Of a stretch of 59,412 bases of DNA, positions 18,966-24,772 are shown in pieces. Under the pieces are notes generated by a model. The model saw only the letters and a program-made list of their open reading frames with translations, was not told the DNA's origin and searched no databases. The DNA comes from Chthonomonadia bacterium (lineage in GTDB: Bacteria; Armatimonadota; HRBIN16): contig JABUFA010000022.1 of assembly GCA_013314755.1 (NCBI GenBank), positions 1-59,412 of the forward strand. Reading direction: 5' to 3'. Position numbers and translations under genes: made by a program. Each line of letters opens with the position of its first letter. Position 1 is the stretch's first letter.

Positions 18966-18995
18966 TTGCGGAATAGAGCCGTTTTGTGGTATACT
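18966..18995 (+). promoter_or_regulatory. Sigma70 promoter of the hox operon
   Basis: TTGCGG (18966-18971), an 18-nt spacer ending in TGTGG, and TATACT (18990-18995) form a plausible promoter. Transcription would start near 19002, giving a leader of about 195 nt before hoxE. Confidence 0.6.
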
Positions 18996-19026
18996 CAAAC
19001 TGATAAATATAATATATCAAAATGTT

Positions 19027-19134
19027 GAGATTCAGCACCACCTGTGGTGCTGAGCAGGGGTTACGCAGGGGAGAGAATCTCACGGCGAAGGTGCCGCTGA
19101 ACATAGATGGTGCTCGGTGGCGAGTGCGTTTTTT
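19027..19134 (+). promoter_or_regulatory. Structured leader with terminator/antiterminator (candidate attenuator) of the hox operon
   Basis: The leader can fold into an outer helix GAGATTC (19027-19033)/GAATCTC (19075-19081), an inner 9-bp hairpin TCAGCACCA (19032-19040)/TGGTGCTGA (19045-19053), a small CGGC/GCCG hairpin (19083-19096), and a terminator-like hairpin (19110-19116 with 19121-19127) followed by GTTTTTT. AGCACCA at 19034-19040 can also pair with a second TGGTGCT at 19108-19114, which would break the terminator stem. This is the layout of a transcription attenuator or riboswitch. No known class is recognised; ligand or protein partner unknown. Confidence 0.5.
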
Positions 19135-19197
19135 GCCAATATCCCCTTGTTGCCCCTCAACAGCCAAAACTACGAACAGACGGAGGGAGCGCGGAAC

Positions 19198-19698
19198 ATG
19201 CATTTCACGAAACCATCTCCGCCTTCGGACGACAAGCGGTGGCGCATTGTTGAAGCCACTATGCGTCGACACGGGTACGACTCGCACGCGCTGATAGAGA
19301 CTCTGCACTCGGTTCAGCAGACGTTCGGCTACCTGGACACGGAGGCGTTGCGATACGTGGCAAAGTCACTGCGTGTGCCCCTGAGCAAGGTGTACGGAGC
19401 GGCCACGTTCTACCACTTCTTCACGCTGAAACCGCAGGGCGAACATACCTGCGTAGTATGTATGGGCACGGCGTGCTACATCAAGGGCGCGCCCAACATT
19501 GTGGCAGCGGTTTCGGAAAAGTATCAGGTAAAGCCCGGCGAGACTACCGCCGATGGAAAACTCTCCTTGCTGACCGCCCGGTGCCTGGGGTCATGTGGGC
19601 TGGCGCCGGCAGTGGTATTTGACGGAGAGGTAGCAGGCAAAGTGACGCCCGAGGAGGCGCTGGAACGGATAGGGAGGTGGATGAACCATGACTCCTGA
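19198..19698 (+). CDS. hoxE: Bidirectional [NiFe]-hydrogenase diaphorase subunit HoxE
   Basis: A 166-aa NuoE-like subunit with a thioredoxin-like [2Fe-2S] fold that passes electrons inside the NAD-reducing hydrogenase. The four cluster cysteines are visible in [10 protein letters not shown] and [11 protein letters not shown]. The N-terminal helical part ([17 protein letters not shown]) is typical of HoxE/NuoE. The ATG at 19198 is preferred over an upstream in-frame codon at 19117 because GGAGGG precedes it and the family starts here. First gene of hoxEFUYH; its 3' end overlaps hoxF by 11 nt. Expression is likely controlled through the structured leader upstream. Confidence 0.93.
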
Positions 19699-21331
19699 AG
19701 AACTGCGCAAGCTGGCGTCGTCGCAGGAGGAGGCTCGCCCCGAGCCAAAGCACCGGATTAAGATATGTGTGGCGGCGGGCTGTTTGTCCGCACGCAGTGA
19801 CCAGGTGCTTCAGGCACTGCAGGACGAAATCGCCCGGCGCGGGCTGACCGACGAATGTGAGGTCAAAGGCGTCGGTTGTCTGGGGTTGTGTACGGCAGGA
19901 CCGCTGATGGTGGTGGAGCCTGAGGGTGTGATGTACGAAGGCGTCACCCCTGAAGACGCCAGCGACATTGTGAACAGCCTGGGCGGTAAACCAGTGGAGC
20001 GACTGCTGTGTCCTGCGGATTCGCCCTTCTTCCAGAAGCAGTACAAGATTGTCCTTGAAAACAGCGGGCTGATTGACCCCGAGAAGATAGAGGACTACAT
20101 CGCGCGCGATGGCTATACCGCGCTGGCTCGGGTGCTGGAAGAGATGACCCCGCAGGAGGTGATCGACGAGATTACCCGGAGCGGACTGCGCGGGCGCGGA
20201 GGCGCAGGCTATCCCACCGGCTTGAAGTGGAGCACCGTCGCCAAGGCGGGCGGCAGCCGCAAGTTCGTTATCTGCAACGCCGACGAAGGCGACCCGGGTG
20301 CGTTCATGGACCGCAGTGTGCTGGAGAGCGACCCGCATCGCGTGCTGGAAGGGATGGCGATAGCCGCTTACGCGGTAGGCGCGAGCCAGGGCTACCTCTA
20401 CGTGCGTGCCGAGTATCCGCTGGCGGTGAAACGCCTGCGCACGGCTATCCGACAGGCAGAGCGCCTGGGTCTGTTGGGCAACAATATCTGCGGCACCACC
20501 TTCAGCTTCCATGTGGACATACGTCTCGGAGCGGGCGCGTTCGTTTGCGGTGAGGAGACCGCCCTGATTGCCTCCATCGAGGGCAAGCGCGGTCAACCCC
20601 GTCCGCGTCCACCCTATCCTGCCGAGTACGGCTTGTGGGGCTATCCCACGCTGATTAACAACGTGGAGACCTTTGCCAACGTCGCCCCCATCATCCGCAA
20701 CGGCGGCGACTGGTTCGCCAGCATCGGCACCGAGAAGAGCAAGGGCACGAAGGTGTTCGCCCTGGCGGGGAGCGTCAAGAACACCGGACTGATCGAAGTG
20801 CCGATGGGCATCACCCTGCGCGAGATAATCTTTGAAATCGGCGGGGGCATCCCCGAAGGGCGCAGGTTCAAGGCGGTGCAGACGGGCGGACCCTCCGGCG
20901 GTTGCATTCCCGAACAGTATCTGGATATGCCGGTGGACTATGAGTCGCTGGCGAAGGTCGGTTCCATCATGGGCTCAGGAGGGATGATTGTGATGGACGA
21001 AACCTCCTGCATGGTGGACGTGGCGAAGTTCTTCATGGAGTTCTGTATGACCGAGTCGTGTGGGAAGTGTGTGCCGTGTCGCGTGGGCACAGCGCAGATG
21101 TACGACATCCTGCAGAAAATCACTACAGGTGAAGCCAGCATGGACGACCTTGCCCTGCTGGAAGACCTGTGCGACATGGTGAAGCACACCAGCCTGTGCG
21201 GACTGGGGCAAACCGCCCCGAACCCCGTGCTGAGCACCCTGCAGTACTTCCGCGAGGAGTACATCGCCCACATCGTGGACAAGCAGTGCCCGGCAGGGGT
21301 GTGTCAGATACATCGCAGGGAGGGACACTGA
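19688..21331 (+). CDS. hoxF: Hydrogenase diaphorase subunit HoxF (FMN/NAD-binding)
   Basis: A 547-aa NuoF-like subunit that carries FMN and binds NAD(H). The order is an N-terminal thioredoxin-like [2Fe-2S] domain (CVAAGC and CLGLC, residues about 20-110), the NAD/FMN core with [14 protein letters not shown] and [18 protein letters not shown], and a C-terminal [4Fe-4S] site ([12 protein letters not shown] plus a later Cys in [11 protein letters not shown]). This is the usual HoxF length and order. A strong GGGAGG site precedes the ATG inside the end of hoxE. The stop codon overlaps the start of hoxU (TGATG), indicating translational coupling. Works with HoxE and HoxU to exchange electrons between NAD(H) and the hydrogenase. 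Confidence 0.95.
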
Positions 21332-22050
21332 TGAACCAGCCAGTTCGCGTCAAAACGCTGAAGATAGATGACCGCGACGTCAGCGGTCGTGAAGATGAGA
21401 CCATCCTGGAGGTCGCCCGGCAAAACGGCATCTTCATCCCCACGCTGTGCCATCTGGAGGGACTGACCTCTATCGGCGCGTGTCGGTTGTGCCTGGTGGA
21501 GGTCAAGGGCGTATCGCGTCTGCTGCCCGCCTGCGTGACGCGCGTGGAAGAAGGGATGGAGGTGTACACCCAGTCCGAGCGACTGCAAAAATATCGCCGG
21601 ATGGTGCTGGAGCTGATTTTCTCGGAGCGCAATCACATCTGCTCGGTGTGCGTGGTGAACGGCAACTGCGAACTGCAGAGCATGGCGCAGACGCTGGGCA
21701 TGACCCACGTGAGCGTGCCTTACCGCTTCCCCCGGTTGCCTGTGGACGCCAGCCACGAGCGGTTCGTGGTTGACCACAACCGGTGCATCCTGTGTACGCG
21801 CTGTGTGCGCGTGTGCGACGAAATCGAGGGCGCGCATACGTGGGACGTTATGGGGCGCGGTATTGACAGCCGCGTGATCACCGACCTGAACCAGCCCTGG
21901 GGCGAGTCCGAAACCTGCACCAGCTGCGGCAAGTGCGTGAGCGTCTGCCCCACCGGTGCGCTGTTCGAGAAGGGCAAGCCTGTGACCGAGCGCCTGAAGA
22001 GGCGGCAGTCGCTGTCCTATCTGGCGATGATGCGGGAGGGACGACGATGA
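21331..22050 (+). CDS. hoxU: Hydrogenase diaphorase subunit HoxU (Fe-S electron relay)
   Basis: A 239-aa subunit like the N-terminal part of NuoG. It holds a plant-type [2Fe-2S] site ([15 protein letters not shown] plus a later Cys), the His/Cys-ligated cluster region ([13 protein letters not shown]), and two ferredoxin-type [4Fe-4S] motifs ([11 protein letters not shown] and [12 protein letters not shown]). It wires the FMN subunit to the hydrogenase module. The ATG at 21331 overlaps the hoxF stop; the frame is open further upstream, but the family and the coupling fix this start. The 3' end overlaps hoxY by 4 nt (ATGA). Confidence 0.94.
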
Positions 22051-22580
22051 ACAAGAAGCGCATAGCAACCGTCTGGCTGGACGGCTGTTCCGGCTGTCAC
22101 ATGTCCTTTCTGGACATGGACGAACGGCTGATCGAGCTGTTCCAGCAGGCGGATTTAGTATACAGTCCGCTGGTAGACCCCAAAGAGTTCCCGGAGAACG
22201 TGGACATCACCCTCGTGGAAGGGGCGGTGAGCAGTGAGGAGGACCTGCACAAGATTCAGATGGTGCGAGCGAACACGAAGATACTGGTCGCCTTTGGCGA
22301 CTGCGCAGTGACCGGCAACGTGCCCTCCATGCGCAACCCGTTCGGAGTGAACGCCGTTCTGCAGAGGGCGTATCTGGAGAACGTGACGCTCTACCCGCAG
22401 GTTCCTCGCGAGGTAATCCCCGCCCTGTGCGAGCGGGTGCGCCCCGTGCACGAGGTGGTGAAGGTGGACGTGTTCATTCCGGGCTGTCCGCCGTCAGCGG
22501 AGGCAATCTACCTCGCGCTCACCGACCTGCTGGCAGGTAGAATCCCCGACACCGCAAAGCTGACGCGGTTCGGAGCATAA
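22047..22580 (+). CDS. hoxY: [NiFe]-hydrogenase small subunit HoxY
   Basis: A 177-aa small subunit of the group 3d bidirectional hydrogenase, which carries the proximal [4Fe-4S] cluster. Cluster cysteines are visible in DGCSGCH (C14, C17), FGDCAVTG and IPGCPPSAE. It lacks the Tat signal and extra clusters of membrane uptake hydrogenases, so the complex is cytoplasmic. The ATG overlaps the hoxU stop. Only 12 nt separate it from hoxH. Confidence 0.94.
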
Positions 22581-22592
22581 GGAGGTGGCAGA

Positions 22593-24014
22593 ATGGCACA
22601 ACAGATTACCATAGACCCCATCACGCGCATCGAGGGACATGCCAAAATCACCATCCATCTGGATGAGCAGGGCATCGTGCGCGATGCGCGTTTACATATC
22701 ACCCAGTTTCGCGGCTTTGAGAAGCTGTGCGAAGGGCGGCGATTCAGCGAGATGCCGGCATTGACCGCGCGTATCTGCGGGATTTGCCCCGTCAGCCACC
22801 TCATCGCATCGGCAAAGGCGTGTGATGCCCTGCTGGCGGTGCGCATCCCGGAGACGGCGGAAAAGCTTCGGCGCATCTTCAACCTGGCGCAGATGGTGCA
22901 GTCGCACGCGCTGAGCTTTTTCCACCTCTCCTCGCCCGACTTCTTGCTGGGCATGGACGCCGACCCCGCCATCCGCAACATTGTGGGCGTCATTCAGGCG
23001 AACCCTCAGCTGGCGCGCGATGGCATCCGCCTGCGACAGTTCGGTCAGCAGATTATTGAATGGCTGGCGGGCAAACGCATCCATCCCTCGTGGGTGGTGC
23101 CGGGCGGCGTGGCACAGCCGCTTACCGCAGAGAAGCGCGAGCAGATGCTGGCAGGCATTCCCGAAGCGATAGACATCACCCAGCGTGCGCTGAAGTGGTT
23201 CAAGGGCATCCTGCGCCAGTTCAGCGAGGAGATACAGACCTTCGCCAACTTCCCCTCGCTGTTTCTGGGGCTGGTCACCGAAACGGGTGCGCTGGAGCAT
23301 TACGATGGAGTGCTTCGCGTGGTAGACTCCGCCGGCAACGTCATCGCCGATAAGATTGACCCGAACGACTATGAACAATACATCGGCGAGGCGGTGGAAC
23401 CCTGGACCTACCTGAAGTTCCCCTACTACAAACCCATCGGCTATCCGGAGGGCATCTATCGGGTGGGACCGCTGGCGCGGTTGAACCTGATAGACCGTTG
23501 CGGCACGCCGCTTGCCGATGAGGCTTGGGCGGAGTTCCGCACTCTGGAGCGCGGCGCCGTGCTCAGCTCGTTCCACTACCACTATGCCCGCCTGGTGGAG
23601 ATACTGTATGGCCTGGAGCGCATCCAGCAACTGCTGAACGAGCCCGACATCCTCGATACGCGTGTGCAGGCGGTCGCCGGTCCCAACCGCACCGAGGGAA
23701 TCGGCGTGGCGGAGGCGCCGCGCGGAACGCTGATCCACCACTATCGCATCGACAGGGACGGGCTTATCACCTGGGCGAACCTCATCATCGCGACAGGGCA
23801 CAATAACCTCGCGATGAACCGGGGCATCCTGCAGGCGGCGAAGCACTTCGTGAAGGGCGACAGGATCGAGGAAGGGATGCTGAACCGTGTGGAGGCGGTC
23901 GTCCGCTGTTTCGACCCCTGTCTGAGCTGCTCCACGCACGCCGTGGGGCAGATGCCCCTGCAGATACAGCTGCTCTCGCCTACCGGCGAGGTGCTGGACG
24001 AGGTGAGGCGATAG
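22593..24014 (+). CDS. hoxH: [NiFe]-hydrogenase large catalytic subunit HoxH
   Basis: A 473-aa catalytic subunit. The two Ni-binding motifs are complete: [10 protein letters not shown] near residue 62 and [10 protein letters not shown] near the C terminus. Beyond the last His is a tail of about 24 residues ([10 protein letters not shown]...), which in this family is removed by a specific protease once nickel is inserted; the gene just downstream encodes such a protease. The order EFUYH, the cytoplasmic small subunit and the diaphorase genes define a NAD(P)-linked group 3d enzyme. AAGGAGG precedes the ATG. The hyp maturation genes are not in the window. Confidence 0.95.
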
Positions 24015-24021
24015 CACTCCG

Positions 24022-24048
24022 GGAGAGGGCAGAACACCTGCCCTCTCC
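24022..24048 (+). terminator. Stem-loop terminator after hoxH
   Basis: A perfect 11-bp stem, GGAGAGGGCAG (24022-24032) with CTGCCCTCTCC (24038-24048), and a 5-nt loop begins 8 nt after the hoxH stop. No T-tract follows, so it may be a weak terminator or an mRNA 3'-end stabiliser that reduces expression of the protease gene. Confidence 0.55.
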
Positions 24049-24096
24049 TGCCACCCCAACATGCAGATTATATGTTCGCCTCCGATTCTTAATGTC

Positions 24097-24173
24097 TGCC
24101 CTTGCGATTGGGAGTCGCGGGCTACAAGCAGGTTAGCCTCCGCAAGCAGGATTTGCTGAAGCAAGCTTCGGCA
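24097..24173. repeat. Dispersed palindromic repeats between hoxH and the protease gene
   Basis: 24097-24126 is a copy of the dispersed element (TGCCCTTGCGATTGGGAGTC...), and 24154-24173 is a TGCTGAAGCaaGCTTCGGCA palindrome of the second type found at 28934-29011. Between them GCAGGTTAGCCTCCGCA matches the spacer segment at 12206-12225. Confidence 0.65.
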
Positions 24174-24298
24174 CTCCATAAAATCTGCTACTGGTAACTC
24201 TGCTCCTGCTGTGGGCGTCTAAACGGTGCGTTCTTGTTGATAAACATGTTCTGTCGCTGTAGATGTCCTGGCAGGTCAAAGAAGGGGAAGCCTTATCT

Positions 24299-24772
24299 AT
24301 GCAGGGTGCAGAGCACAGATCTCGCAGGGCGCACACGCTGGTTATCGGTTACGGCAACCCCCTTCGTGGGGATGATGGCTTCGGTATGGCGGTTGCGGAG
24401 CAGGTTAGTCGCCTGCTGGCGTCGGAGACGGTGGCGGTGATTGCCTGCCAGCAGCTCACGCCGGAGCTTGCCGAACCCATCAGCGCAGTGGATACAGTTG
24501 TTTTTGTGGATGTGCGAGTGGGCGAGCCGATAGGGTTGATAGAGTGTGAGAATCTCTCGCCGAATCCGTCTGCATCCTCGGTCACGCATTCTCTCGAGCC
24601 CGCAGGCTTGCTGGTGCTTGCGCGAGAGCTTTACGGCAGAGTTCCCCAGAACGCTTTCCTGCTAACCGTTCGAACAACCCACTTCCAGTATGGCGAACAA
24701 CTCTCGCCAGAGGTCGAGCGGGCGATTCCCGAAGCGGTGGAGCGTATCCGGCAGATACTGAGTGGCTACTGA
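24299..24772 (+). CDS. hoxW: Hydrogenase maturation protease HoxW
   Basis: A 157-aa nickel-dependent endopeptidase of the HycI/HyaD family, expected to cut the C-terminal tail of HoxH after nickel insertion. The family start motif is present (VIGYGNPLRGDDGFG), with the conserved Asp pair for nickel sensing, and a second acidic site in VVFVDVRVG plus the His region THSLEPAGLL. ATG at 24299 follows GAAGGGG at a suitable distance; the upstream in-frame ATG at 24263 has no such site and is the alternative. It is separated from hoxH by a stem-loop and repeats, so it may be expressed at a lower level. Its end overlaps the convergent MFS gene by 7 nt. Confidence 0.88.
   Translation: MQGAEHRSRRAHTLVIGYGNPLRGDDGFGMAVAEQVSRLLASETVAVIACQQLTPELAEPISAVDTVVFVDVRVGEPIGLIECENLSPNPSASSVTHSLEPAGLLVLARELYGRVPQNAFLLTVRTTHFQYGEQLSPEVERAIPEAVERIRQILSGY

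Follow-up and report, generated by a model that had tools for sequence, protein, structure and literature searches.

The window, a 59,412-nucleotide stretch of DNA from a Chthonomonadia bacterium, carries a hox operon on its forward strand at positions 19198 to 24772, with the gene order hoxE, hoxF, hoxU, hoxY, hoxH, and a gene for a hydrogenase maturation protease. The first ORF, hoxE (19198-19698, ATG at 19198), was recognized by the NCBIfam HoxE model with 257.8 bits (cut-off, 224); HoxU scored 413.8 bits against its NCBIfam cut-off of 333, the maturation protease matched its profile with 97 bits (cut-off, 47), and the Y and H subunits were recognized by Pfam. By these assignments the predicted product of the operon is an NAD-coupled bidirectional [NiFe] hydrogenase. 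The genus was sampled with ten genomes, eight of which contain hoxE: that of the window species and seven others, whose HoxE proteins share 87 to 91% identity with the one encoded in the window. The 260 bases 5' of hoxE contain a promoter and a leader, which is ∼200 nt long in the window species. A Shine-Dalgarno sequence, GGAGGG, is found at 19182-19187 (+ strand), and its GGAGG is kept, 13 to 16 nt 5' of the ATG, in all eight leaders. In each of the eight species, folding predicts partial to predominant pairing of this sequence, with probabilities of 0.44 to 0.77, and in several of them its partner is the run of Pro/Ser codons that opens hoxE (region 19182-19230 in the window).

A sigma70-type promoter is present 5' of hoxE at the place given in the original prediction (18966-18995, + strand), with the -35 sequence TTGCGG at 18966-18971, an 18-nt spacer, and the -10 sequence TATACT at 18990-18995; from its position, transcription is predicted to start near 19002. 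The motif is common to relatives: alignment revealed CTTGCRR-N17/18-TATA(C/G)T 5' of hoxE in five of those whose contig covers that region. The -10 sequence and an inverted copy of it form an operator-like dyad (18989-19018, assigned to neither strand), which is kept in seven leaders. The inverted copy reads AGTATATC in the relatives, where it lies 3' of the predicted start, and takes the degenerate form AATATATC at 19011-19018 in the window species. Initiation would probably be regulated separately at this promoter dyad, although protein binding to it is uncertain because the dyad spacing is 3 bp longer in relative G001. Similarity to the hoxE promoter region (TTGCA ... TGATATAGTG) was also seen upstream of another gene in the genus, which encodes a 4Fe-4S (HdrC-like) protein and is located at L129 in the window species' own genome (G000:C40:46976-47545) and at L119 in relative G002, with homologues at L124 to L132; the stretch upstream of the G002 gene reads TATACT-N15-AGTATATC. 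The shared motifs suggest that the HdrC-like operon and the hox operon may share a regulator.

The leader was found in all eight hoxE-bearing genomes of the genus, in one copy each and always directly 5' of hoxE. Covariance model searches, which took in 291 genomes, located it neither in the two genomes of the genus that do not have hoxE nor in any of the 281 genomes from elsewhere in the phylum; it was likewise absent at 76 hoxE loci outside the genus, and no copy preceded other genes or occurred in other genera among the 291 genomes. A single match in G138 (L118, E value of 0.016), whose neighbors resemble phosphodiesterase and malic enzyme genes, was rejected as a chance hit, given the 291 genomes searched and the failure of a second model to recover it. 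Past the dyad, the aligned relatives share a common order of elements: AGCACC ... GGTGCT comes first, a G-rich stretch lies between it and GGC ... GCC, and TGAACATAGA follows. Six of the eight leaders then have a T-run, after which a C-rich stretch leads to the ribosome binding site. The leader of the window species is predicted to be more stable than its dinucleotide shuffles (z score of -3.2, 0 of 200 shuffles; -4.0 for the core), and minimum free energy (MFE) z scores ranged from -2.7 to -4.7 in seven of the eight leaders, the cut-off G007 fragment giving -1.0. A reading of GTGCCGCTGAACATAGAT as the peptide VPLNID was discarded, no single frame being kept across the relatives.

The fold common to these leaders comprises two hairpins, P2 and P3, and a long-range helix, P1. 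Hairpin P2 (19033-19052, + strand) is formed by CAGCACCA and TGGTGCTG, which had already been proposed as an inner hairpin and are indeed present; four of its eight pairs carry two-sided changes. P1 was identified by RNAalifold on five relatives and joins a G-rich 5' strand (19056-19075, + strand) to a C-rich 3' strand (19140-19157, + strand); the two are complementary in all eight leaders, and they pair with a mean probability of 0.81 in the full window leader. P3 (19083-19096, + strand) has the sequence CGGC-GAAGGT-GCCG, with 95% of cells paired over the eight leaders and two-sided changes in two pairs. The helix 19056-19075/19140-19157 and the hairpin 19083-19096 were missing from the original prediction, and the conserved fold of P2, P1, and P3, as indicated by comparison of the relatives, is different from the one first proposed. 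The second strand of P1 lies downstream of the U-run and of the supposed terminator. We also put forward, as a proposal only, a helix P4, in which CATAGA (19102-19107, + strand) could pair with the U-run, with one U-U mismatch; six of the eight leaders contain CATAGA together with the U-run, and the other two have lost both. P4 is the best fold of its arm in the window species, G004, and G003, but not in G005, G001, G008, or G009. The window species itself is peculiar: its P2 contains neither the inner stem nor the UUUAG/UUGAG loop of the relatives, and when this species is folded alone, P3 competes with an alternative hairpin.

A first covariance model was built from the five relatives and the RNAalifold structure, with the window species left out. 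It matched the leader of the window species (19024-19159) with a score of 51.1 bits, and it scored two other unused leaders, the partial one of G007 and the divergent one of G008, at 43.8 to 48.3 bits and 31.5 bits, respectively; G008 was missed by this model in the whole-genome search and was found by the second model, which includes it. When counted on an alignment that had itself been fitted to the model, and hence with a bias towards the structure, 13 of 34 pairs in the eight leaders showed two-sided changes, compared with 6.6 in shuffles (0 of 500 reached 13) and 2 to 7 in slid structures; the covariation score was 0.274, versus at most 0.107 for slid structures. We also used a strand-swap control, in which helix strands were exchanged between species and the cognate pairings were ranked. 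The cognate pairing of the P2 arms ranked 1st of 5040. For the P1 strands it ranked 3804th of 40320, no significant preference, because the G-rich and C-rich strands are nearly constant and fit each other generically, except in G008, where both strands have changed together, the sole clear compensation in P1. Comparative evidence thus supports P2 strongly, P3 well, and P1 moderately.

These data bear on whether the leader acts as RNA at all, since the conserved letters might be DNA sites, namely promoter and operator, with any folding incidental. Both the promoter and the inverted copy of the -10 sequence are indeed conserved, and P1 alone has no significant cognate preference; the two-sided changes in P2 and P3, however, and the model matches in three leaders that played no part in model building argue against this explanation, which we consider scarcely credible. 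Covariation among the leaders of relatives had been named as a check on the candidate element, and the analysis found both conservation and covariation, leaving the element unrefuted. For the window leader and those of six relatives, no Rfam 15 family, Moco and fluoride included, scored close to its gathering threshold, and a survey of the open-access literature on hydrogenase leaders and riboswitch candidates found no description of such an RNA element before hoxE. The original prediction of a candidate new RNA element before hoxE is therefore supported, in that the element is conserved, covarying, and uncatalogued; on the evidence of sequence comparison, it is a conserved, uncatalogued, structured leader RNA, which probably serves to control the operon.

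The mechanism first proposed for the leader fared differently. All of the sequences it invoked are where they were reported to be, but the switch pairing, the outer helix, and the terminator are not kept in relatives. The outer helix, GAGATTC (19027-19033) with GAATCTC (19075-19081), is present in the window species and private to it. TGGTGCT occurs at 19045 and 19108 and AGCACCA at 19034, and pairing of the latter with the second TGGTGCT was expected to undo the terminator in a mutually exclusive switch. That second copy is not common to the relatives, and in a transcript extending only as far as the U-run the pairing has a negligible mean probability (∼1e-5) and lies 7.7 kcal/mol above the MFE, which argues against the switch. 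The proposed terminator, found by pattern scan at 19110-19134 (+ strand), consists of the hairpin GTGCTCG-GTGG-CGAGTGC (19110-19127), a G, and T6 (19129-19134). Hairpins no more than 2 bases from the U-run have energies of -8.2 kcal/mol in the window, -5.2 kcal/mol in G003, and -1.7 kcal/mol in G001; G004, G005, and G008 have no hairpin directly before the U-run, and G007 and G009 have no U-run. The hairpin and T6 are thus present in the window, but a good hairpin is found only there, and the U-run is missing in two of eight leaders. Over the whole window, terminator-like matches numbered 41, against ∼46 expected, which is the chance level. As a yardstick for a convincing terminator, we used the hairpin that follows the fluoride riboswitch in the window (RF01734, 28749-28830, minus strand, 42.6 bits), which has an energy of -18.2 kcal/mol and is followed by T5; the hox leader hairpin is weak beside it. 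The two leaders, which belong to one genome, are alike in being structured and in having a hairpin with a T-run after the structure, but the hox leader has neither an aptamer match nor a hairpin of that strength.

An attenuator of another kind, in which the hairpin and T6 end some transcripts and an upstream alternative fold is in control, rather than the TGGTGCT repeat, is consistent with several of these observations. The U-run is found in six of eight leaders, the window hairpin is followed by T6, and the fluoride riboswitch in the window also precedes a hairpin and T5. Furthermore, a window transcript that stops at the U-run, short of the C-rich strand, is predicted to fold unlike the full leader, with probabilities of 0.85 for the outer helix and 0.04 for P2, compared with ∼0 and 0.96, respectively, in the full leader, and the MFE structure of the window species contains a longer hairpin that replaces P3 and overlaps the terminator-like one. 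Five of the six relatives full enough to judge, however, do not place a good hairpin immediately 5' of the U-run, two leaders have no U-run, the window's terminator-like sites are not above chance, and P1 requires a strand downstream of the U-run. We therefore regard attenuation of this kind as rather unlikely. Like known terminator/antiterminator attenuators, the leader in the window species has a hairpin with T6 and alternative folds; it differs from them in that the relatives do not keep the hairpin along with the U-run, and in that the conserved long-range helix extends past the U-run. The terminator/antiterminator mechanism of the original prediction is not supported by the sequences of the relatives; a species-specific attenuator is conceivable in the window species, though it would not be what the genus has preserved. 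A leader-peptide attenuator was also considered and rejected: the window leader has no ORF with a ribosome site, and none is common to the relatives.

Covarying helices around two unpaired stretches, the UUUAG loop and CUGAACAUAGA, which are partly conserved but lost in some members, placed before one metabolic operon, would also be compatible with a new class of metabolite- or metal-binding riboswitch, whose aptamer would combine the loop of P2 with the junction of P1 and P3. Moco/Wco riboswitches are likewise structured RNAs found before hydrogenase genes, some of which are preceded by Wco examples (PMC9481103), but the hox leader in the window and six relatives matches no Rfam family. The P2 loop is absent in the window species; the letters of the would-be junction vary within one genus, two of the eight leaders have lost CAUAGA, and the element is limited to one operon and one genus. 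We give a new riboswitch class little chance of being correct. Nothing was found that ties the hox leader to a ligand. The leader might be an RNA sensor of a kind not described before, either a riboswitch or a protein-responsive leader, for nickel, redox state, or a cofactor, which would directly control the NAD-coupled [NiFe] hydrogenase operon and which in the window species would have become, by reshaping, bistable and equipped with a terminator; we consider this decidedly unlikely.

Control at the level of translation could arise if the C-rich strand paired with either the G-rich strand (on) or the Shine-Dalgarno sequence (off). Every one of the eight leaders has a C-rich strand complementary to its GGAGGAAG site, with duplex energies of -7.4 to -11.1 kcal/mol. 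When the G-rich strand was removed, however, pairing between the Shine-Dalgarno sequence and the C-rich strand reached a probability of at most 0.40 and was ∼0 in half of the species, and the cognate pairing of the two ranked 19843rd of 40320, no preference, which points to generic complementarity. A switch of this type has, in our estimation, very little chance of being correct.

The explanation that we tentatively prefer, one that is plausible but somewhat short of probable, is that the hox mRNA of the genus starts with a conserved, genus-specific, cis-acting structured leader whose selected function lies in the full-length mRNA, after initiation. Comparison of the relatives shows hairpin P2 and a second domain, which is closed by P1 and encloses P3 as well as a variable arm containing the U-run; in the read-through transcript, all of these lie 5' of the ribosome binding site. 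P1 can form only once RNA polymerase has passed the U-run, and since it needs a strand beyond that point, we infer that the selected function resides in the read-through mRNA rather than in premature termination. The leader would most likely act on mRNA stability or translation, and candidate roles include protection from decay, ribosome access, and protein binding. Counting against this explanation are the missing cognate preference of P1 and, in the window species, the loss of the inner part of P2 and the competition faced by P3.

A hox operon of the same type, hoxEFUYH, is found in Synechocystis PCC 6803, where the published account (PMC4264147) describes control at the promoter by LexA, AbrB1, and AbrB2, and a transcription start 168 bp before hoxE. 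The two operons also share a sigma70-like promoter with 18-bp spacing and a long leader; they differ in that the passages on control of the Synechocystis operon describe no structured RNA element (PMC4264147). In the literature that we found, hox operons are described as being under the control of transcription factors at the promoter. If the leader serves only to stabilize the mRNA, it would be a modest addition to known structured leaders. The eight natural variants make the element directly testable, and an RNA element with compensated helices in every hoxE-bearing genome of the genus would represent a layer of hydrogenase control not described in that literature.
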